Shown here piece after piece: positions 35,948 to 63,545 of a DNA stretch of 64,000 nt. Numbering within the stretch: the first letter of the stretch is position 1; the number at the start of each line of letters is the position of its first letter. Source of the stretch: Lineolata rhizophorae (taxonomy: Eukaryota; Ascomycota; Dothideomycetes; Lineolatales; Lineolataceae); assembly GCA_010093515.1 (NCBI GenBank), contig MU001672.1, positions 1,244,582-1,308,581 on the forward strand, in the 5' to 3' direction. The notes under the pieces are model-generated. The model was not told the origin of the DNA and did not search any database. It saw only the letters and a program-made list of their open reading frames with translations. Made by a program: the position numbers and the translations under genes.

Positions 35948-38275
35948 ATGAGTGCCATTCTATCCGCCGACGACCTCAACGACTTTATCTCTCCCGGCGT
36001 CGCCTGCATCAAGCCCGTCGAGACGCTACCAAAGCCAGCCGAGGAGAACTCGGTACGTCACTTGCTCCCCTAGTACAACACGCCCGTCCTAGTTACACTA
36101 GCATCGACCCTCCTTATTCCGCCTTCTCTTTCCTCAGAACGTGGTACTCGAACCATCCAGCTAACCAACCCCTTTTTCGCTCCCGAGCAGAACCCCTACG
36201 AAGTCACCACTGAAGACAAGGTTGCAGCCAGTGCCTCGGATGCGCCCCCCGCCCAAATCTCCCTGACCGACTGCCTCGCCTGCTCCGGCTGCGTCACCTC
36301 CGCCGAGGCCGTCCTCGTCAGTCTGCAGTCGCACGCCGAAGTCCTCTCCACGCTCGACGCGCACCCCGAACTACGCGCTTTGCCGTGGAAATCTAGCACA
36401 TGTACATTCTCTCCCTCCATTCCTAACAATGCTATCCCCGCCAACGGCACCGCCGCGGCCGGCGTGGACGCCGGACTCGAACCCAAACTCTTCGTCGCCA
36501 CCGTCTCCCCGCAGGCCCGCGCCTCCCTCGCCGCTACCTTCGGCCTCTCCAGTCGTGACGCTGGAAACATGATCTCTCAGTTGCTCAGCGGGCCACGCGG
36601 TCTGCGCGGTGGCGGCCCGCACGGTTCCGGCTTCGCCTGGGTGCTGGACAGCAACGCGCTGCGTGAAGCGGCGCTAGTGGCGGCCGCGGACGAGGTTGGT
36701 GTGGCGCTAATGGACGGGAAAAGCGGGGGAAGAGAACGAGGAGAAGGCGTGAAAAGACCAGTGCTGAGCTCCGCCTGCCCGGGCTGGATCTGCTACGCGG
36801 AGAAGACGCACCCGCACATCCTACCGCACCTATCGAGGCTGCGCTCACCGCAGGCGCTGGCCGGCGCTCTGATCAAGTCGGTGCTCGCGGCTAGGGGCGT
36901 CCCGCCGGACAGGGTGTGGCACTTGGCAGTAATGCCGTGCTTCGACAAGAAGCTCGAGGCGAGTCGGGCGGAGCTGACAAGCTGGGCATGGATGGACGGT
37001 GTCAATGGTGCGGGAGGGGATGGAGCGGGAGTCAGAGACGTGGACTGCGTCATCACGGCGAGGGAACTGCTGCAGGTGGCTGCAGCCAGGGGTATCAGCT
37101 TCGTCGACCTACCGCGGTCAGACCCATTTTCGCCCCAGTGGGGAGGCGTAAGCAGGCCCAGTTTCCCGGACGACGAGCTCGAGCGGTGGCTTTTCCCTCG
37201 TGCGTCTTCGGGGTCGGAGACCAAGTCCGAGAACGCGCCGACTGCGGGTGATGGGGATGTGAACGCGACGCCCGCGGCCGTCGGCACGTCGGGCGGGTTC
37301 TTGTGGCACGTGCTGCGAGCGAGGCAGGCGGCAGCGCCGAGGGGCAGCAGGATCGTGGTCGAGAGGGGGCGGAACGCCGACGTCGTCGAGTACGTCTTGC
37401 GCGGCCCTCGTCCTAGTCCGCCTGTGGGCACGGAGGTGGACAGTGTGAACGGCTGGCCGAGAAGAGGCGGGACGGCCGACGGAGAGGTCCTGTTCCGTGC
37501 GGCGCGGTACTACGGGTTCCGGAACATTCAGAACCTCGTGCGGCGCCTCAAGCCGGCCAAGAAGTCGCGGCTGCCCGGCGCAGCGGTGCGAAAGGGTAGG
37601 GGTGCCGCGGCTGCGGGAGGTGCTGGTGGCGCCGATGGGTGCGAGTACGGCTACGTCGAAGTGATGGCATGCCCGGGGGGTTGCACGAATGGCGGTGGTC
37701 AGGTGAAGGTCGGAGAGGTGGATGAGGTGAGGGGGTTAGGTGGTTTGGGTGGCGAGGCGGCAGACGGAGGGGAAGCGAAGCCGGAAGCCAAGGAGAAGGA
37801 GGAGCGGAAGAAGAAGCCCGGTCCGCAGGAGCAAAGGGAATGGTTGGCCAAGGTGGACGAGGCGTATTGGTCCGGCGAGAGCAGCGGGTCTGAGGCCGAA
37901 GCCGAAGCCGCGGTCAGTGATGAGGACGAGGCCATGGCGGACGCTGCGGAGCAGCCGCCGCGGCCGCAAGCCGAAGTGGACACTATGGAGATCGACGTCC
38001 CGCACCCGTCCGCTACCACAAACGGCTTCGCCGTCAACGGTTCCGCCGGAGGCCCCGCCGTGCAGGCCTCGCGGCCGGGCCTCGTCGTCGACGGCATATC
38101 CCACGCGCGCGTGCACGCGCTGCTGCGCGCGTGGTCCGCAGCGGCGGGCGGCGTGCCCGTCGACAAGCTGCTGTACACGAGCTTCCGGGAGGTGGAGAGC
38201 GATGTCGGGAAGGAGAAGAAGAGCGATGTCGAGAGGGTGGCGGGACTGGCGAGTAGTTTGGGGGGTGGGTGGTAA
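35948..38275 (+). CDS. nar1: Cytosolic Fe-S cluster assembly factor NAR1
   Basis: Iron-only-hydrogenase-like protein of the CIA machinery, which delivers Fe-S clusters to cytosolic and nuclear apoproteins. Exons 35948-36052 and 36191-38275 give 729 residues. The start [20 protein letters not shown] is the fungal NAR1 signature. N-terminal cluster ligands are Cys20 and the DCLACSGC triad (Cys63, 66, 69). The C-terminal H-cluster-like site has [14 protein letters not shown] (Cys231), [13 protein letters not shown] (Cys285) and [14 protein letters not shown] (Cys529, Cys533). The C-terminus contains the [10 protein letters not shown] motif. Between about 545 and 650 a Lys/Glu- and Asp/Glu-rich, then Ala/Pro-rich linker lengthens the protein over yeast Nar1 (about 490 residues). 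The intron is 138 nt with a GTACGT donor. Confidence 0.95.
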
Positions 38276-53007: not shown

Positions 53008-54588
53008 TCACTTCGCCAAAAGATAATCCCCCCCAACCACCGCCCTCCACACCCCATACAACCCATTGAACGGCCACACCCCCCACAGCCTCCCCTTCAC
53101 CCACCCCACCCAACCCAGGCGCTTCCCGTCCTCCTCCCCCCCCTCCCCAGGTCCCCTCACCCTCACCTTCTCAAACACGCTCGGCAGCCCCTCGGCCCGA
53201 TACTTCCTCCTCAGCCCCCCGTACGCCTCCGCGTCGTAGATCTGCCAGAACTCGTCCTCGGTGTAGTACGCGTGCGCGTAGAGGCACTTGAGGCCGCCGG
53301 CCCGCCGCACGGCGGCCTCGACGGCGCGATTGGCCGCCACGAAGCGCGCGCGGTCGCGCGGGCCCATGCCCCAGACCCCGACGTTGACGAGCATCGGCGC
53401 GTCAGGCCGCAGGTCTCTGCCGGTGTAGAATGCCGGCGGGCGCGGTGCCCCTTCGGCTCCGGCCTCGCCGCCCTGCTGCTGCTGCCGCGCCCGCGCCCGC
53501 GCCGGCGGCAGCAGCGGGCACAGCCAGAGCGGGAAGATGCCGAGCTCGGCCCGGACCCAGTCGATGAAGGAGCCGGCGGTGGAGAAGGGGAAGGCGACGT
53601 CCTGGGCCATGACGCGGTCGCCGATGCCGCTGGCGTGCAGCGCGGCGTACATGGGGCGCGCCCGCATCAGCCCGTCCAGCACGTAGCGCGTCACGCGGTT
53701 GAAGGGCGTCGCGAAGTAGCGGAAGGCGTACGCCCCGCCCCAGAAGGCGCCGCGGTCGTAGCGGAAGAGGTAGTCCGGGGTGGGGATGGCGATGCGGAGC
53801 GCGTCCGCGCAGGCGGCCGGCGAGCCGGGGGAGAGCGGCCGCTGGCGGCGGGTTAGCCGGTCGGCGTGCATGTAGAACCAGGGGTCGTGGGCGCGCGTGA
53901 AGCGCTGGACGGGCAGCGACGGCGACGGCGCCGCCGTGAGCACGCCCGTCATGACGACGCTGCGCTCGGCCGAGAACATGATGGCGTCGACGAAGTCGAG
54001 GCTCTCGTCCCGGGTGAAGGCCTCGACCACCTTCAGCGTCTCCTCGACCCCGCGCACCGTGCGGTACTCGAGCTCGACGAAGCCGCCCGCCTCCCTCAGG
54101 TCCACCTCGAGCAGCGTCACGACGCCCAGCGTCCCACACGTGCCGGCCGCCCCGTAGAACAGGTCCCGCCGCTCCGTCCGCGACGCGCGCACCACCTCGC
54201 CGTCGCCGAGCACCATCTCCACCGCCCCGATCGTGCAGTCGAACAGGCCGTACTTGAACGACGAGCTCTCGCCCGCCGTGCCCGCGAACCCGCCGCCCAC
54301 CGTGATGCCCGGGAACTCCATCACGACGGGCGGCAGGCGCCCTGCGGGCAGCGTGGCCGCGACCAGCGCGTCCATGGGCACGTTGGGCTCGACGACGGCG
54401 ACGCCCCGCGATGCGTCCACGGATAGGATCCGGTTCAGCCCGCTGGTGTCGACCACCCGGTCCCGCGACACCTTGTTCATGCGCGTGCTGTTGGTCGAGC
54501 CGTGGTAGATGCGGAAGCTTTGCTGGCGCTCGTGGAAGGCGCGCACCGTGGCCGCGATGCGGGACACGGCTTCGCGGTGGGCCTCCAT
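53008..54588 (-). CDS. FAD-binding oxidoreductase, delta(24)-sterol reductase (DHCR24/DWF1)-like
   Basis: Single-exon gene of 526 residues. The N-terminal half is a FAD-binding type 4 (PCMH) domain: FRIYHGSTNSTR, VVEPNVPMDALVAATLPAGR, then PVVMEFPGITVGGGFAGTAG and ESSSFKYGLFDCTIGAVEMV, a stretch typical of DHCR24/DIMINUTO proteins. TCGTLGVVTLLEVDL closes the FAD fold. The C-terminal part has the family AFWGGAYAFRYF, LVNVGVWGMG and LYAHAYYTEDEFWQIYD segments. There is no N-terminal membrane segment. In animals and plants this family reduces C24 double bonds of sterols. Fungi making ergosterol retain a C24 methyl group and use Erg4 for the terminal reduction, so the substrate here is open. A Gln/Ala-rich insertion lies at about 360-385. 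Confidence 0.88.
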   Translation of the reverse strand: MEAHREAVSRIAATVRAFHERQQSFRIYHGSTNSTRMNKVSRDRVVDTSGLNRILSVDASRGVAVVEPNVPMDALVAATLPAGRLPPVVMEFPGITVGGGFAGTAGESSSFKYGLFDCTIGAVEMVLGDGEVVRASRTERRDLFYGAAGTCGTLGVVTLLEVDLREAGGFVELEYRTVRGVEETLKVVEAFTRDESLDFVDAIMFSAERSVVMTGVLTAAPSPSLPVQRFTRAHDPWFYMHADRLTRRQRPLSPGSPAACADALRIAIPTPDYLFRYDRGAFWGGAYAFRYFATPFNRVTRYVLDGLMRARPMYAALHASGIGDRVMAQDVAFPFSTAGSFIDWVRAELGIFPLWLCPLLPPARARARQQQQGGEAGAEGAPRPPAFYTGRDLRPDAPMLVNVGVWGMGPRDRARFVAANRAVEAAVRRAGGLKCLYAHAYYTEDEFWQIYDAEAYGGLRRKYRAEGLPSVFEKVRVRGPGEGGEEDGKRLGWVGWVKGRLWGVWPFNGLYGVWRAVVGGDYLLAK

Positions 54589-55503
54589 TTGTTGTGGCTT
54601 GCTTGCCTTGCTGATCTGGAAACGTTTAGACCGAAAACGAGAGGTTTAAGAGCGCGAAGAACGGGAAAAAAAAACAACTTAAGACGAAACGGCTGGAGAT
54701 GAAATCAATAGTTGACTATGAGAAAGGCAGCGAAAATTAGATGGAACGGAGTCGAACAGAAATAGATGTCAATATGATGCTTGAAAACGCGCACAACAAT
54801 GTTGCAATCAGGTCAATGGTGATAGACAGAGCCAATTCGTTTCAATGGTCAAGCTTTTTCAGTGCGAAGAGGTTCCTAAGGCAATGCTCGCCAACAATCG
54901 ATCCTGACACTTTGAGAGGCTTAGTGAATGCTCCTATGAGAGGAGGTTGACGAGCTGTGGTGTACAGTAGTCGAGGTTGTCGTTCACAAGCTGCATGCCG
55001 CGCCCCAAATCGGGTTAAGCGCTTCCGCGGCTTCCCATGAAACGAACACCACCGAATCTCTTATAGCAAACTCAGGTTGTTTCTAAGCTCTAGTACTTCT
55101 TAAACTGGTGCAGTTCATTTGCCTAAGTCCTGACCTGTAATTCATTCTAGAGGAAACCTTACAAAAGCATTCGTCACTAATCGAATACAATGGTAAGAGC
55201 GAGCAAAATGTTTAATAATCCAGAGAGTCACAACATCGACGGTGTATTAAGACCCAAACCTTTGCAATTCTTATTCCAAGGAAGAAAATCGTGTTTAGTA
55301 TCTATTTTCTTTTCTATGCATACAAGTTTTAGCAGGATGCTCCACTTGTTCTTGGCGCTAATCATGCTATTTAGGGATTCCTCACGATTGTGACCCATTT
55401 TCTCCTCCGCTAGACTTTCAAATTACTAAAGGGTTATATCATCCTCCCATATTTTAATACCGAACCTCATCTCTGCCTACCCCTTAAACTAATTGCTTTC
55501 CTT
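54589..55503. other. Intergenic region between FAD oxidoreductase and rvt
   Basis: AT-rich DNA holding the upstream flank of the DHCR24-like gene and the 3' flank of rvt. Two short plus-strand frames (54741-54950, 55190-55393) have no recognisable features. Confidence 0.5.
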
Positions 55504-58239
55504 TCAGCCCTGCCAACGTACCCTCTCGCTCCTCAGCACTTCCAAGAGCCCAATTGGAAGCATATCTTTCTCACCCATAGACAGGCCAGCAAACTTCTCA
55601 ATCACTTCGCCCGCATACAGTTGCACGATCCATTTCCAGTATGGCGACGCCTTGTTCCAGCCTCTCGTGAGCCCACTGCGGTCGATCGAATTCGGAGCTA
55701 GGTCACTCAGTGCGCGGTCCACTTCTGGCGTTTGCGCCACCACGGCCTCCTCCGGTACCTCGAGCAGCTTCTCGTACACTGTTCCCATGCGCCTAGACGT
55801 GTGCTCGCGGAAGCGGACGTACTCGTCCAAGCCCATGAAGGTTTCAGTCTGCGGGTCGAACTCGGCCGAGAGTTTTACCGGTTCACCTTCCTTGGCTGCG
55901 GCTTTGTACTTGAGGACTTTGGAACGCAGCGAGTAGTCGGGCTTGAAGTCGCCGTTGTGGAACCTGTTCTTGGCCCGCTCGTACGATGTCTTGTCCGTCT
56001 CGAAGGCCTGGAGGACATCGTCGACCGGGTCCTTGGGCGCTTTCTCGTATCGCGCCAGGAACGTGATAAAGGGGTTGCGAAGCTCTAGGCCGCCGAGCTC
56101 AGCTGGCAGGTAGAAGAACCCGTCCGGCAGGCCTTTAAAGTTAAAACGCTTCTCGATTTCGGAGCGTAGGAAGTCGGTTACGTTAGCGTCAAACCCCTCG
56201 TTCGGACTGTTCCCGGCGAAGACGGCTTTCTGCACGCGCTTGAACGTCTCGATGACCATATCGATATGCTGCCGGCCTAGGCAGTTTGCGGCTTGCCCAA
56301 AGTTGGTCGAGAAGAAGCGCGATACGTAGCTGTTCCAGGCTTGGACCCAGGCCAAGACGCTGCGGCAGGCGCCTAGCTGACGACGTAGCTCCTCGATGTG
56401 CTGATCCACCTGTTTTTGGTCAATGATCCAGCGACCATGTTTGGCATCGAGAATCAAAAATCCCCAGCGGACCGGCCCCTGAGGCAATGGAGACCGAGGA
56501 GAGCGGAACAAGCCCGGATCATCGAGGACAAGGGCGGAACCAGTCTTTTCTTCGTTCAGAGAGAGACCCATCACATTCGCAAACTCATCCAAGGCCGTCC
56601 AAGCAGTCTGACAGGAATCTTCCTGACCCCAGTACCACAGGTCATCGTGTAGACGATAGAGATTCCCGCCCTCAGTTCGCTGGTTAATCGCATAATCGAG
56701 GCAAAAGAGAATTGGTTCGCTCAAGGCATTGCTCAACATGTGGCTCATTGGAACACCACATTTCCGGACTTGGACGACAGCATCAGGGCCATCGTGGGAA
56801 AAGGCAAGAGGAGTCTGGAGGAACTTGCGAAAGAAGGCCAGCCACTTGGTCGGAACGCCGAAGAACCGGAGCACTTCGTAGATTGTAGAGTGGGCCAACG
56901 AAGGCCCATACCACTTGAAGTCTGATTGCCATACGCAGAATTGCCCGTGCACCTTCTTATTGATCAGCATTTCTGTCGTCGCCAAGCGGAACATCTGTTC
57001 CTTCAATAGGGCCGCGCCCTTTGCCTTCTGGTTAGTCGCTTTGTCGATGTCATCATCGTCATCATAGGGCATAGAAGGCCCGTCAAAGTGATCAGGAAGC
57101 TGTGTGAGAAAGTAGTTATCCCTAAAGTCCGATTTACGCCTATGCCAGACGGAGCCGGGAATTGTCCTCCTCTCGTTGGCTCCAAGGAAGTATTCGCGGC
57201 GGTCCTGAGCATGCCTCGGAATTAATTCGCTCTGGAGGATTTCATGCCATGCGGGCGAGTCGTACAACATCCCCAAACCCTTCTTGAGATAGACAGCAAA
57301 CTTCATCCCGATGAAGTGACAGAAAATGGCTTGGTGGATTTCCTCGTCCATATAGACACGATATTTCCCGCTTAACTGGCGCCTCATGTTTAGGCGCACT
57401 GGAGACGGTTCCCATTGCCACGTGTCCAAGGAGTCGAGGTCCATATTCAGCACGTCTGCCATTTCCCTCAGGACCGTGCTCGTTTTGCTCCGTAAATCAA
57501 CCAGCGCCTGTCGCTTCTTGCCAGCGAAAAGGTCTTCCCTAAGGACTCCGTCGATGCAGGTCACAACGATGTCCGAGTCGAACCGACTCGGAGAAGATTC
57601 GTCGAGCTTCGCAAACATCTTACGGATTTCATTCAAAGGGCCGGTCTTGAATTTGCCTTCGGAAGCCGTAGCAAACAGCTCCGTCAGGTATTTCCGAATG
57701 TTTTCTGTGTCCGTCATTTTTAGAGTGAACGCGAACGTCTCCCACTGCTTCCGCTGTTCATGCATCTCCTCCCTCCCAATGGGCTCGAAACCCGACGCCG
57801 AGCTGTCTGCGTCTGCCGTGGCTGCATCGTCATCGCTCGCAGCCGATGCTGGCATTGCCGGGTTCTGGTTCTGAATCCATTCAGTCAATAGCTTCCCAAA
57901 CAGCTCTGCATAGTCGTATTTCAAGCTCTGGATTTCCAAGTCATGTAACAGGCTATTCTCCCACTGTCGCATCAGCGCTGGTGTTACGCTTGGGTCGTAG
58001 CGTGACTGGTTTAGGAAGCGCTCCACATTCTTGACCGACATGCCACCGCGTCCAGCCTCGAGCCCATGCTTCTTGATGCCATCGAGGAGTGCCTGGACCT
58101 TCTTGTTTGGCTCTGTCTCCTTCTCAGCCTCAGCTAGGATCAAGGCCCGCTGCGATATAAACTTGGCTTGGTGCTCAGCAAGCTTTCGAAGCTTGCGGTC
58201 CGTCACGTGATGTAGAGTGGAGAGTACGGCGTTGGCCAT
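55504..58239 (-). CDS. rvt: Reverse-transcriptase-related cellular gene (RVT protein)
   Basis: A domesticated single-copy reverse transcriptase-like polymerase of the rvt class known from fungi and a few other eukaryotes, distinct from retrotransposon RTs. Intronless; the ATG at 58239 gives 911 residues beginning MANAVLSTLHHVTDRKLRKL, which starts the coiled N-terminal region. The frame is open 38 codons further to an ATG at 58353, which is less likely. Motif A is WQSDFKWYGPSL (Asp440). CGVPMSHMLSNALSEPILF follows (motif B region). Motif C is YRLHDDLWYWG (Asp532, Asp533), with the rvt-specific LHDD in place of YADD. LSLNEEKTGSAL follows as motif D. A His-rich or integrase/endonuclease domain, LTRs and a partner ORF are all absent. 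The C-terminal region (LPAELGGLELRNPFI, then RGWNKASPYWKWIVQLY) is conserved in the class. The frame is intact with no sign of decay. Confidence 0.95.
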   Translation of the reverse strand: MANAVLSTLHHVTDRKLRKLAEHQAKFISQRALILAEAEKETEPNKKVQALLDGIKKHGLEAGRGGMSVKNVERFLNQSRYDPSVTPALMRQWENSLLHDLEIQSLKYDYAELFGKLLTEWIQNQNPAMPASAASDDDAATADADSSASGFEPIGREEMHEQRKQWETFAFTLKMTDTENIRKYLTELFATASEGKFKTGPLNEIRKMFAKLDESSPSRFDSDIVVTCIDGVLREDLFAGKKRQALVDLRSKTSTVLREMADVLNMDLDSLDTWQWEPSPVRLNMRRQLSGKYRVYMDEEIHQAIFCHFIGMKFAVYLKKGLGMLYDSPAWHEILQSELIPRHAQDRREYFLGANERRTIPGSVWHRRKSDFRDNYFLTQLPDHFDGPSMPYDDDDDIDKATNQKAKGAALLKEQMFRLATTEMLINKKVHGQFCVWQSDFKWYGPSLAHSTIYEVLRFFGVPTKWLAFFRKFLQTPLAFSHDGPDAVVQVRKCGVPMSHMLSNALSEPILFCLDYAINQRTEGGNLYRLHDDLWYWGQEDSCQTAWTALDEFANVMGLSLNEEKTGSALVLDDPGLFRSPRSPLPQGPVRWGFLILDAKHGRWIIDQKQVDQHIEELRRQLGACRSVLAWVQAWNSYVSRFFSTNFGQAANCLGRQHIDMVIETFKRVQKAVFAGNSPNEGFDANVTDFLRSEIEKRFNFKGLPDGFFYLPAELGGLELRNPFITFLARYEKAPKDPVDDVLQAFETDKTSYERAKNRFHNGDFKPDYSLRSKVLKYKAAAKEGEPVKLSAEFDPQTETFMGLDEYVRFREHTSRRMGTVYEKLLEVPEEAVVAQTPEVDRALSDLAPNSIDRSGLTRGWNKASPYWKWIVQLYAGEVIEKFAGLSMGEKDMLPIGLLEVLRSERVRWQG

Positions 58240-59585
58240 TTTGTCTCGCGGCAAGGAAAGACGCTGGAATTGTCGGAATCGGCAATTTAAAAAATAATGC
58301 GAGGAGTCAGCTTTGGAGATTAGACGTGGAGACAAGTGGCTGACACCGAGCAACTCCAGGAGCGGAGAGTCGACTAATCGAAGCCGTGCAGCTATTTAGA
58401 TGTAGAAGCTTGATGCCTAAACAAGGTCGAAAACGGCTCTTTTGTACCTCAGCTTCGAAGGTCCGAACACAGTATAACCTACTAAATTGAACGCGAACGT
58501 CAAGTCAAACCCGCGACTGAAACTATCAATAGGAAGTCGCCATTACGTAGATCTGTGTCGCCTAACAGGCTAGCCGTTGCCAGGTCACCCTCACCGCCAC
58601 CTTAGTACCAGACAAATATCAAAACCAACAATCTCAAAGTGACTCAGAGGAAGAGAGAGCGGGGAAAGAAGGAGAAAATTAAACCAAAATCTGATATCTT
58701 CTCTCACTCTACCCCCTCCGTAGCCTGCATTGCGACATGGACGCTAATCCTACCTCGGCGCAGGCAGCGACGGGCGCGAGTCACGTCTCATGATCTCACA
58801 TTTGAAGGTAGTCCGCGAGCCCGCCTAGTTGGATCGACACGTCTACACTTGTTGCTTCATAGATCGGATCTTGCAAATGCCAGATACCTACGTAGTAGGT
58901 AGCTACCTATGCACAGGATTACCCGTGCATGCCTAAGTAATTCGTAGTTAGTTACCGGTGACGCGGCGAGAGATCTGCGCTCTAACGGCTATGGCCACAG
59001 CAACCATTCCACAGTTTGTGCCTCGAACGTAATTAACTCCCATAAAACAAGCGCCGAGTCGACCAGCCTAGAAACCAAGTGGGAACAGTCATGTCCCGTG
59101 TGCGTCTAAAATAAACCAGAAGGAAGCCATCGAAATTAGGCAAACTCTGGAGTTGAACTGATTCATATGGTGGACATTTATTGGATATCGACATCTAGCC
59201 GAATTCATTTTTATAGTGACTCATTCACTGCGCTAGCCTTGTGGTTGGCGCATTCAAGCACAGGTCAAACCTGACTAAACTAACAATTCCATCAATCTGC
59301 TATTTGAATGTAGAGGCGCTGAATTGGCCACGCTTCTCAATACTGAACAGTAGATGTTAGTATCGGTTGTCGTGTTACTATTACTTCCATTCTGTGTTTG
59401 TAAAATTGCGTTAGTATAAATAGCTTACACTAGACAGCAATAATAATGAGATGTGTAGGTAAGATCAGTTCCCCAAGGTGAAAAGAGAGATAAAGTTTCT
59501 TCAACGTGTGAGCTCGGAAAGAACACAGCGATGAGGTGTTCATCATAAAAACAAAAAGGTTACAAACTGCAATACGCACTTACCA

Positions 59586-61442
59586 TCAGGGCGGAGTGAT
59601 GGACCTAGTATTAGCTAACAACAGAAACTCATTCGGTAGCTTTAGCTGATACATGCATAGCAAACAAGGTATCACTCCAGGAATGAGTTCAAGTGCAGGA
59701 GCGATTTGACTACTAGAAAGGACAAGATTAGGTATGAGCCCGTCGGAGTAGGTGTGAACTGGCGGCTTCCATGTGTTGGAAAGAATGACTAGGTATCCTT
59801 GCGGCGCCACTGCTTGAGCATATTGATGTCATGTTAGTAGATTGCCTACGGCATAGATCGAAACCCTATAATCCCGCCCTCTATCAATTAGCCACAGTCC
59901 TAGGAAGAATATGAGACTCGGGCGGAAGTTTTGAAGTGAAGGGCCATCTGCAATCAGGCTTTCGCAAAATGTTAGTATACCGGCCTTTTATGGCGCAAGG
60001 TCAGTGGAGACATACCTCATTAAATCAGAATTTTCAGTGTAGCGCTCATCTTCGAGCCGCGCTCGTTACAACGCGGTCGATCACACAGTGTGAATATCGT
60101 ATCATCATCTAAAGAGATGGCCTGCTGCTGAAGAACGGAGAATGATACCATACCTTCTGCTATAACGTTAGCGTGAGACTCAACAATGCAGCATGAGATC
60201 CATGAATGTCGAAATTGGTGCGATTAATCAGGTGACGAAGATCTCAACAAGCACATCCTAGCTTCGAGACCAGCAAGGTTGTACAGCCTTGCATACAAAA
60301 GGATCCGACCAGGTGTACGCAGTCTGTCCGCCCGTTCGTTCAAGATGTCTTCATGTAAGGAAGGTGCGGGACGAAACGCCGAAAATGGAAGAAGGGCATA
60401 TACCTGTTTTCAACATTTCAGGTCAGCTTAGTTCAGAGAAATAACGTAATGCATGATATGCGATAAACCCAGCGAAATCAGACAAGGCTGAAACTTTTCA
60501 AGATGTGGTCTACATAATGTATTCTGATTGAGGAATGCCTATTCCGTTGTCTTTGATGGTCATCACTTCGAGGGAGCGGGAAGAAGAAACCTGGAAGTCG
60601 TACCTTTCCTGTACTACATTAGATAAATCAAAGCTCTATCTTGCGATAACAATTCGGACCTGTGCTGTTCAAAAGCGAGGCCACCTCATCTAGACGGCTG
60701 GCTTCGGATAAACGGCTTTCCTAGAGACCGCATTAGCTTCGAGCTCAATGAGGGAGCCCGCTGAAAATAATGAGAGAGGGATTCTCTGTCAGAGTAATTC
60801 TAGAGTCTTGATTATGTCCTTCATGACGCTGTAGGAGTTGGATTGTTCGTGTTTGATATTTCATCACAAGACTTGCAGACAATTAACAGAGGCGCAACCG
60901 GCAACTTACCATTCGCGTAGCTACACCGGTGGGCGGCGAAAGCAAGGCCTTGGTCTCGGCTTAATTAGGGCAGTCATTATCGGCTTCGGCGAGCGATCTC
61001 GACACTGATCGTCGATGTTTCGACCCAAACAACTTATGTGGAGAAGCACAGAAGCGGGAAATTTTTCGAGCCCGAGGCGAAAGGTAGTTAGATGTTCGGC
61101 ATGGGTCGGCCCGAGTTCGCCGTCGCCGCAAACTCTGCTTACGTAACGACGGCCACTACCAATCAACCGCCGATCTCAAGCCTTTCAAACAACTCCTAAG
61201 AGAACTACATACCTACAGCTCCAAGTTCATCTGCGTCGCAGGTTTTCGGGTCAATGCTGTGCGTAGTAATTATCTGTCGCAGTCTTGCAGTTTCACTCTA
61301 CAAAATGAAGTCAAAATGAAGTTCTGACTGTTTCTCGCAGGAACCCAGATCATAAGCGGAAGATCAAACCACAAAACAAAGGTACCAAACTAACCTCAAA
61401 CAATTTGCCTAGACTGCAGCAAGGCTGTGCAGGTTGCCGCAT
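59586..61442 (-). pseudogene. Possible intron-rich or decayed gene, family unknown
   Basis: No long frame exists, but several segments read like protein and are bordered by plausible splice sites. One pair, 61442-61395 and 61297-61213, joins in phase: MRQPAQPCCSLGKLFE, then SETARLRQIITTHS and IDPKTCDADELGAV, with donors GTTAGT and GTATGT and a TTTGTAG acceptor. Further down are segments around 60650-60715 (SRLDEVASLLNST), 60270-60410 (LHEDILNERADRLRTPGR) and 59586-59810, a 74-codon hydrophobic frame containing LVILSNTWKPPVHTYSDG. I could not connect these into one model without frame conflicts and do not recognise the family. It may be a real gene with many small exons, a pseudogene, or chance. 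Confidence 0.2.
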
Positions 61443-62027
61443 CGATCAGTGGCGCTCGCGCGTGCACCAGTCAGGTTTCAAGGAAGCACTTTCGTCAGTA
61501 GAAATAGAAAGTAAAACCAGAAGTCTCGCTTTCGGCAGCCGTCGGCCATCTATGGCTTCGGAACCGTCTTGGCCTTTCGGCGCAGCTTTCAGCTCTGTGG
61601 GGTTGTGGTTGGGCCACAATATTTGCGCATATGGGTTTGTTTCACAAGCGGTCAAATATGACACCGGTCAAGCGCCTCAGCTGCTGCTGCCTTGTGGAAC
61701 ATGCGGTCAATACTCGCCTTTTACTCCGTCAAGCACTCTTGGTCGACTTGTTAGAGCGTAGATTCCGCCGCACCTCAAACACGTGGCTTTTGGGGCACTC
61801 CAATTATCGTGATAATTTGTGATTTTACTCCTTGGGCGCTCGGAATGACAGCTTGGCTATGCAGACTGAGGCTGAGTGGCGCCGATGTGTTGTCGAAAAT
61901 ATTTTCAGGGGCAACTCCGATGATGTGCCAAAGGTGGAATGCTGACTTGGGTAGTATCTTCTTAAATAAGAGCCAGAGTACAACAGTACGCTCAGTCACT
62001 CCTAGGTCTTTCGCCCAACCATCACTC

Positions 62028-62085
62028 TTCGTTCTTGTCTTTTCTGTTTTTTCTTGAGCTATTCCTTCCCCTCCCTTTGAGCAAG
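62028..62085 (+). promoter_or_regulatory. Pyrimidine-rich leader of vWA gene
   Basis: An almost uninterrupted C/T run just before the proposed split start codon. It resembles the CT-rich core promoter or leader tracts of expressed fungal genes. The assignment is by composition and position. Confidence 0.4.
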
Positions 62086-62094
62086 ACAGAAATA

Positions 62095-63545
62095 ATGTAA
62101 GTCAATTTCCTTTTCTTCTTGTACAAAATTTCCGATATGTATACTACATTACACCTGTTGAATTGCTATCAACTACACGCTTCATTAAGCTATCCTCCTG
62201 TGATGCTACTATTTGCAGGCCGATATCAAACATATGGTTACATTACTCCCGTTTACTAGGACTTAGTGCTTGCAGATCACAATCTATAAAGTCCAGAGGT
62301 CTGACTTTTCCTTCTAGGCTTCAGCTCATTCACTTAGCTGCAGCGACCGGCTTCCTAGCCAGCGTCGGCCATACCTTCGCTCATCCCGATCTAGTCCTTC
62401 CTCGCCAGTCCGCGCCAACAGCCCTCTGCCCCGACCTACAAATTCCTTCTGGTAGCGGTGGCCGCAAAATTGCTGTCGTGATCGACAGCTCCAGCTCTAA
62501 CCATGGAACGGACCCGGACGACCTGCGCGTAGCGGCTGGCCGGAGCCTGGCCGATGTGCTCGTGAGCACCGCCGAAGCCACGGCCGACCTACAGGCCGAT
62601 CAACTCGCTATCGTAGACTTTGACTCGAGCGCTACCGTCATCTACGAACTAGGCGACCCGGCCGCCGCCGACTTCAGCTCCATCGACAGCTTTGGCGGCA
62701 CGTCGATCGTGTCAGGCGTCGAGGCGGCGGTTGACGAGCTAACCAAGCCCGAGTCTGGCCCCACGGCCGACCGCGCGGGCATCGTCGTTCTCACCGACGG
62801 CCAGGGCGGGAGTGTCGCCAGCCTCGTGGAACAGATCAATCGCGCCATTGGCCTGGGCATCCGTGTTAGCTTTGGCTTCCTGGCCGCTGACGCCGAGGGC
62901 GCCGGCGATCCGGACGTGCTCGCGGCGATTCTAAGCTCTAGCGGCATCTACTCAGCCTTTGACAACGCGGCGGCGCAACAAGGCTTCGTCAACCTGGTCG
63001 TTTCGCACGGACTAACCAACGGGGGTGCTGGCGACGGAGATACGTCCACCTTGCTAGCGGGCTTGTCCATCGCCGCGAAAGTCGATCCGGATGGACCTAA
63101 CACCTTCACCTACGCGGCCCAGGACGGCGAAGATCTCGGCTTCACCGTCACCTCCGTCACAGCGGGCAACCTAACCTGCGCGCTGTCCGACGCTAGCGGC
63201 GCCGAGCTAGCCACTGCATCGTCGGACGAGAGCGGCCTGGCCACTATCAACGTGACTGCACCCGCAACAAGCGAGCTCCAGCTTAGCGTCAGTGCCAGCA
63301 ATACCTCCGAGGATGCGACTTTTCTCGTCATGGTGAATTCGTCGCTCGGTATTGCAAATTGTACATTGCCGGAATCGAACGGAACGACGCCGTCCCCTTC
63401 GAACTCAGCAGAGAATGGGACCGCCTCGCCAACGCATTCGCTACCGCCGCAGTATACGGGGGGAGCAGTGGCTATGATGGCCGGCGGGAGTGGAAGTGCG
63501 ATGTTTGCGTTGGGAGGGTTTGTTATGGCTGCCTTGGTGTTGTAG
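62095..63545 (+). CDS. GPI-anchored von Willebrand factor A-domain surface protein
   Basis: Proposed model: AT at 62095-62096, a 221-nt intron (GTAAGT donor at 62097; CTGAC branch, pyrimidine tract and CTTCTAG acceptor to 62317), then G CTT CAG from 62318. The split ATG starts a clean signal peptide, MLQLIHLAAATGFLASVGHT, and a 409-residue protein. The unspliced frame from 62163 lacks a signal peptide. A vWA domain carries a complete metal-ion-dependent adhesion site: DSSSS (Asp57, Ser59, Ser61), Thr129 in GGTS and Asp161 in LTDG. A beta-rich region follows, with several N-glycosylation sequons (NVT, NTS, NSS, NCT, NGT), a Ser/Thr/Pro stalk and a hydrophobic C-terminal tail (MFALGGFVMAALVL) typical of a GPI signal. 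Ligand unknown; adhesion or wall attachment is inference. Confidence 0.8.

Follow-up and report, generated by a model that had tools for sequence, protein, structure and literature searches.

An intact rvt gene in the fungus Lineolata rhizophorae and its homology to the bacterial reverse transcriptase class UG37

We analysed a stretch of 64,000 nucleotides from contig MU001672.1 of the mangrove fungus Lineolata rhizophorae (GenBank assembly GCA_010093515.1), referred to below as the window. A gene on its minus strand, positions 55504-58239, is almost certainly, from its sequence features, an rvt gene, that is, a member of a cellular family related to reverse transcriptases (RTs), and our confidence in its family and integrity is very high. 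As judged by sequence, the family of this protein and the bacterial RT class UG37 are one family. This one-family view bears on the long-standing question of what rvt genes do. An initial annotation, drafted by a model from the DNA letters, had described the gene as an intact, single-copy and non-mobile rvt, and this description is supported here by a single match in the genome and by unique flanks. The bacterial counterpart, an upstream cluster of small nucleolar RNA (snoRNA) genes, a mis-fused public gene model and upstream boxes of the Gcn4 type go beyond that annotation.

Results

Homology with bacterial UG37

The Lineolata protein's family and UG37 are joined by profile, pairwise, shared-residue and tree evidence. 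In PADLOC the best match was the RT_UG37 profile, whose positions 7-659 of 778 align with aa 10-727 of the protein (E 2e-63); the next class, UG17, reached E 9.4e-6. Five other fungal proteins matched the same profile at 2.2e-69 to 5.8e-75. A group II intron match (E 0.0056; TIGR04416, 15.9 bits against a cut-off of 300) stayed below threshold. Profiles of the fungal and bacterial proteins were aligned by hhalign at E 1.1e-62 over 746 columns with 21% identity, and a single fungal-bacterial pair reached 3e-37 in BLASTP. The homology between fungal rvt and bacterial UG37 extends over about 750 residues and includes both termini.

A set of 27 proteins, comprising 15 hand-picked from 132 fungal-type proteins and 12 full-length bacterial ones, shares in every member the catalytic residues and W274, W276, R368, H658, P712, G716, G717, W870 and P895; the DD of motif C is likewise present in all 27, and Y867 in 26. 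All 13 group II intron RTs compared have gaps opposite H658 and W870 and a different residue opposite W274; they do have the catalytic residues and W276. A small tree of 27 fungal-type proteins, 12 bacterial proteins and 13 group II intron RTs gave a support of 0.999 for the split that joins rvt with UG37. The group II set was not recovered as monophyletic under the rooting used, and only this split was taken from the tree.

In the phylum of Ktedonospora formicarum, which we take to be Chloroflexota, 14 of 400 genomes matched the UG37 profile at E <= 1e-40. Each of the 14 has one match, at most two candidates per genome having been scored; 12 are full length without stops and 2 are partial. 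None of 395 genomes from the phylum of Rhodocytophaga matched at 1e-40, which does not show absence. Scans with peptide patterns from the fungal alignment confirmed 0 of 62 stretches in genome contigs and 0 of 34 in viral contigs; since the UG37 profile then found bacterial members, the negative in genome contigs is a matter of sensitivity. Phages and plasmids yielded no relative by tblastn at E 1e-3; when the threshold was relaxed to E 10, plasmids gave nothing beyond weak RT matches of short length.

A statement that rvt and UG37 are one was not found in the literature searched, which included neither the founding paper nor the biochemical study of 2018. Among the literature matches listed, none had UG37 together with 'reverse transcriptase' or 'defense', and those listed for 'UG37' alone deal with HIV or West Nile material and, in one case, with a solar cell. 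PMC12632851 places telomerase among the UG RTs; rvt is not mentioned in its sections 9 and 10, the word occurring once, in the reference list.

Integrity and conserved features of the gene

The coordinates and uninterrupted frame of the initial annotation, which left the strand unstated, were confirmed: the coding sequence is a single exon on the minus strand, with 911 aa and 0 internal stops. Upstream of the ATG at 58239 the frame is open as far as 58395. This ATG is the start that matches homologues, and the N-terminus aligns with the start of one of them, P0003 (labels of this form are ours). The GC content at third codon positions is 0.675, and that of four other frames in the window is 0.61-0.95.

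A search of 5.8 billion proteins returned 280 matches at E <= 1e-3, and by sequence the homologue matches to the 911-aa frame far exceed chance. The top match was the deposited Lineolata rhizophorae protein with 100% identity, and the runner-up by score had 52%. Among the 120 matches listed of the 280, 112 cover at least 92% of the query, and identity is 36-54% once the deposited version of this very gene is set aside. A second, alignment-based search gave mostly the same proteins again among the matches listed. Homologues with the same N- and C-termini occur in many other ascomycetes. Two fungal-type rvt proteins are filed under plant names, P0116 (Calypogeia fissa) and P0070 (Carpinus fangiana); the plant assemblies may be contaminated with fungal DNA, or the genes may have been transferred.

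Conservation was measured in an alignment of 120 proteins, with the window protein included and its fused deposited version, P0002, left out. The two motifs that had been recognised at the outset, SDFKWYGPSL (aa 439-448) and RLHDDLWYW (aa 529-537), do bear the polymerase aspartates: D440, D532 and D533, together with R529, H531 and K565, are invariant in 120 of 120 proteins. The C-terminal W909 is kept in 115 of them, and the HDD string of motif C is found in all 132 rvt-family proteins of a later, larger set. RT motif 2 (SGKYRVYMD, aa 290-298) is separated from motif A by about 130 residues in the alignment and in the AlphaFold2 model, and passages of PMC5718144 name loop 2a as an rvt feature.

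The AlphaFold2 model was built from 71 sequences and has a mean pLDDT of 88.3 and a pTM of 0.88, with aa 130-152 and 401-404 uncertain. Its predicted fold comprises long N-terminal helices, a palm, the insertion that precedes motif A, helices resembling a thumb and a helical C-terminal part; structures of group II intron RT, R2 and DRT9 align over a range that takes in the thumb-like region. Apart from an implausible PhyH match (E 0.021), Pfam recognised RVT_1 alone, weakly and short of the cut-off (E 0.0052); none of the RNase H, endonuclease, integrase and gag domains turned up in its scan of the protein. A sequence search of the PDB returned a lone match at E 0.23, which was judged to be chance.

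Copy number and flanks

The gene has one match in the 31-Mb Lineolata assembly and each of its flanks has one match in the genome, such counts being lower bounds. Neither long terminal repeats (LTRs) nor inverted repeats were found around the gene in 53500-60500, where the one pair of direct repeats, of 28 nt, is chance-like; the initial annotation was right that LTRs and retrotransposon accessory domains are lacking. The TA/AT ratio is 0.59 in the rvt frame, 0.84-0.98 in the flanks (0.98 in the upstream part, 58240-59300) and 0.78 in the window, and a bias from repeat-induced point mutation (RIP) is not clear at the gene from its sequence.

A control search of the same genome with RVT_1 found 15 other RT stretches, rvt not among them. 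The initial annotation had named multiple near-identical copies and best matches to LINE or LTR RTs as signs against rvt. Several of the other RT frames do recur across different contigs with identical length and score, while rvt has its one match. As to best matches, by sequence the protein sides with UG37 (E 2e-63 versus 0.0052 for RVT_1) and not with LINE or LTR elements; among solved structures R2 and LINE-1 proteins come first by fold, a likeness that we read as shared architecture. RT frames of 1329 aa with equal or near-equal score are present in contigs C19, C25, C26 and C48 of the Lineolata genome, and frames of 1403 aa, again with equal or near-equal score, in C27 and C35; these are apparently recent retrotransposon copies.

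Bacterial rvt loci

Six bacterial loci have a shared gene order in which rvt starts 28-29 nt after hisG. The identification of hisG rests on Pfam in L110 and, for the remaining five loci, on BLAST clustering. Since the six loci are one clade, they count as one event. Over the 15 pairs of these six relatives omega was 0.066-0.153, with dS up to 0.8, and rvt is under purifying selection in them. After the upstream boxes of the fungal gene, this hisG-rvt arrangement of one clade is the second feature that points to amino-acid starvation.

Bacterial rvt is immediately followed on its 3' side by a conserved non-coding block, located at L110:11243-11437 and at the corresponding places in L105-L109. 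In six genomes 159 of its 190 columns are invariant, and it contains repeats of GTGATTAA/TTAATCAC as well as the palindrome TGTAAACGTTTACA. The block could be an RNA, or it may serve the next gene as a promoter; the start region of that gene is conserved even more than the block. The invariant fraction is 0.73 in the gap between rvt and the next gene, 0.73 in the rvt frame and 0.28 in another gap. As a general rvt RNA the block is not supported; the repeats as a set are missing from the other six bacterial rvt loci. Rfam gave no match in the 7 bacterial loci scanned.

Upstream boxes and neighbourhood in the fungus

Two TGASTCA strings, presumably boxes of the Gcn4/CPC1/AP-1 type, lie upstream of the gene, both between it and the nearest snoRNA (Table 1). 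In the window the string occurs 5 times against 5.86 expected by chance. With the window only as background, the probability of at least two in a given 1 kb is 0.003-0.004, and 41 of 6300 sliding kilobases of the window hold at least two. The pair is a suggestive pointer, from the letters of the DNA, to starvation control. The TGASTCA string was not found in the papers on fungal cross-pathway control examined, and no literature linking rvt with cpc-1 was among the matches listed. A five-codon upstream open reading frame (ATGGCGACTTCCTATTGA) lies near 58543 on the minus strand, about 300 nt before the rvt ATG.

The AT-rich upstream flank, in which the initial annotation saw no obvious partner genes, is a cluster of C/D snoRNA genes, two at the Rfam level and a weaker third. 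Lying upstream of rvt and on its strand, the cluster probably constitutes a non-coding host gene for snoRNAs. Over 58240-62160 the families reported by Rfam were ordinary C/D snoRNAs, together with a single weak match to a cis-element. The Sordariomycetes, in which synteny was to be followed, do not include the host, which is a Dothideomycete. Elsewhere in the window, Pfam recognised the large-subunit domain of iron-only hydrogenases (PF02906, E 2.2e-41) in a frame at 36380-38275 (+), whose product is probably a Nar1-type iron-sulphur assembly protein.

Table 1. The rvt gene, the parts of its protein and neighbouring features (positions in the window)
Feature	Position	Strand	Description
rvt coding sequence	55504..58239	-	ATG at 58239, stop at 55504-55506; single exon, 911 aa
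N-terminal helical domain	57430..58239	-	aa 1-270; long helices aa 2-39 and 87-123; AlphaFold2 model; collinear with bacterial proteins
Insertion (loop 2a)	56950..57345	-	aa 299-430, between RT motif 2 and motif A; alignment and model; limits set by us
RT motif A SDFKWYGPSL	56896..56925	-	aa 439-448; catalytic D440
RT motif C RLHDDLWYW	56629..56655	-	aa 529-537; catalytic D532, D533
Thumb-like helical region	56035..56418	-	aa 608-735; model; limits set by us
C-terminal domain	55504..56034	-	aa 736-911; YW.W motif (Y867, W870) and P895 common with bacteria
TGASTCA box	58640..58646		401 nt upstream of rvt ATG
Second TGASTCA box	59217..59223		978 nt upstream of rvt ATG
C/D snoRNA Afu_294	59462-59550	-	above Rfam gathering score
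snR51-like C/D snoRNA	60013-60115	-	below Rfam gathering score
C/D snoRNA Afu_455	60476-60570	-	above Rfam gathering score
VWA-domain frame	62058-63545	+	beyond the snoRNA cluster
FAD-binding protein	53008-54588	-	downstream of rvt

Discussion

Within its family, which is known but poorly understood, the Lineolata gene looks ordinary, and its added interest comes from the UG37 homology and the two pointers to starvation. Passages of PMC5718144 describe rvt members in both bacteria and eukaryotes. According to passages of PMC10680173, rvt is single-copy and widespread in free-living organisms, aids bacteria, fungi and rotifers under amino-acid starvation and antibiotic stress, and polymerises without a template in a manner that requires the catalytic residues. 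In the portions of the literature drawn on, the published rvt phenotypes concern starvation, antibiotics and translation inhibitors. We consider it reasonably likely that the whole account is as follows: the gene is an intact rvt, and its product is a starvation-induced, probably protein-primed, untemplated nucleotide polymerase. Such a polymerase would have the palm and fingers of an RT, the loop-2a insertion, a thumb and family-specific helical domains at both termini. By analogy with published rvt proteins, it would add nucleotides without a template, probably primed from an amino acid of the rvt protein itself, it would work as a multimer, and it would be switched on when protein synthesis is limited. 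A 2018 paper by Yushenova and Arkhipova, going by its title, is said to deal with multimerization and protein priming of bacterial rvt. In Lineolata the switch would be general amino-acid control (CPC1/Gcn4), acting through the two upstream boxes. Nucleotide storage, self-tagging and signalling are possible roles of the product.

Several points weigh against this account. The name rvt rests on features described for the family rather than on an rvt-labelled protein such as that of N. crassa, the libraries searched having returned no profile or protein of that name. The omega values for purifying selection come from the bacterial relatives, and the constraint in fungi is one of protein conservation only. 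The top fold matches are R2 and LINE-1, which are templated enzymes, at 10-13% identity, so that templated synthesis is conceivable; we read this likeness as shared architecture. Y392 was dropped as the priming tyrosine: it is conserved in 27 of 27 proteins but is unspecific, since 11 of the 13 group II intron RTs also have a tyrosine aligned with it. The statistic on the boxes is small and comes from one window, with the 1 kb chosen post hoc. The adjacency to hisG is the single event of one clade, and the other six full-length bacterial loci do not show this adjacency, two of these being seen on stretches of 4-5 kb only.

PADLOC places UG37 among the defence-associated RTs, and every experimentally characterised UG enzyme is implicated in phage defence according to passages of PMC12632851. 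The Lineolata protein might on these grounds be a eukaryotic defence RT that synthesises DNA against viruses or genetic parasites, as is presumed for UG37, with stress induction being secondary. Even template-free, protein-primed synthesis would be in keeping with it, as PMC13275509 describes this for DRT1 in the portion consulted. A TIR-domain protein that adjoins rvt at L111:11248-12660 (-) also speaks for it, being the sole defence-like one among 10 neighbouring proteins scanned at five bacterial loci. The 4 scanned at hisG-type loci are metabolic-type and match nothing in PADLOC. A defence role sits poorly with these metabolic neighbours, with the six relatives that keep rvt beside hisG across dS up to 0.8, with the one match per genome in the 14 UG37 genomes (at most 2 candidates scored in each) and with phenotypes that concern starvation, antibiotics and translation inhibitors. 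We regard it as unlikely.

It is quite improbable that the protein is a templated enzyme copying a dedicated non-coding RNA, like DRT2, DRT9, DRT10 or telomerase, with the reported untemplated activity as a by-product seen when the protein acts alone. The conserved block that follows rvt in bacteria would be the place to look for such an RNA, and the gap that contains it is conserved above another gap. This gap is, however, conserved no more than the rvt frame, the block may be a promoter of the next gene with its still more conserved start region, and its repeats are not general among bacterial rvt loci. Rfam is silent at the bacterial loci scanned, and beside the fungal gene it finds ordinary C/D snoRNAs and the weak cis-element match.

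The deposited protein P0002 (BDY21DRAFT_369193) has 1441 aa and runs from rvt, ending at ...RSER, into the downstream FAD-binding protein. If it were correct, the gene would truly encode a fusion of rvt with an FAD-dependent oxidase, which is very improbable. The implied intron, 55521-54616 on the minus strand, does have a GT donor and a CAG acceptor, but it is 906 nt long, skips the proper stop and deletes the conserved C-terminus of rvt including W909, which 115 of 120 aligned proteins keep. Three more of the 132 rvt models exceed 1000 aa (P0011, P0061 and P0123), and in the two over-long models with a recorded extra domain the partners are PF09351 and a P450. Such differing partners are as expected of model errors, and we infer that all four over-long models are annotation fusions. 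The public annotation of the Lineolata gene is very probably wrong and needs splitting.

An intact LINE-type retrotransposon copy preserved by chance is scarcely credible: R2 and LINE-1 do head the fold matches, but the gene has one genome match, unique flanks and no terminal repeats in the region scanned, its sequence class is UG37 and not LINE, its N- and C-termini are common to homologues of many other ascomycetes, and RIP bias is not clear.

Returning to the starvation-induced polymerase, we tentatively put forward a wider proposal, which is possible although we would not call it probable. Rvt and UG37 would be one enzyme family, so that fungi would have a UG (defence-type) RT apart from telomerase and Penelope; starvation control would operate in both kingdoms, through CPC1/Gcn4 boxes and through the hisG operon; and at times of stalled translation the enzyme, primed by protein and working without a template, would use up nucleotides, store them or tag itself. 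Under the one-family view, methods devised for DRT systems, such as RNA immunoprecipitation, adduct mass spectrometry and phage assays, can be applied to the role of rvt, and starvation hypotheses from fungi can be tried in bacteria.

Comparison with known systems

R2, LINE-1 ORF2p and Prp8 resemble the RT part of rvt at the level of fold, with 10-13% identity. R2 and LINE elements are mobile, whereas the Lineolata gene has no signs of mobility and no endonuclease domain in the Pfam scan. DRT9, DRT2 and AbiK, which are UG/Abi defence RTs with solved structures, have the palm, fingers and thumb in common with rvt, and DRT9 and AbiK are protein-primed according to the portions of the sources drawn on. 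They are shorter than rvt and only about 10-15% identical to it, and the aligned ranges of DRT9 and DRT2 stop at model residues 735 and 690, respectively, before the C-terminal domain.

The Lineolata gene is like the rvt genes of the Gladyshev and Arkhipova class, from fungi, rotifers and bacteria, in being single copy without signs of mobility, in its insertion between motif 2 and motif A, its intact catalytic aspartates and its extra N- and C-terminal domains, and in belonging to a family with bacterial as well as eukaryotic members. It differs in that its protein is at most 54% identical to other proteins among the matches listed. UG37, which PADLOC files as RT_UG37 under DRT and whose candidate defence function is indicated by that label, differs from the fungal proteins in a sequence identity of 20-22% and in motif C, which reads VDD, IDD or MDD in the 12 bacterial proteins and HDD in the fungal ones. 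The two are alike in a homology of about 750 residues and in W274, H658, W870 and the catalytic residues, present in all 27 proteins compared.

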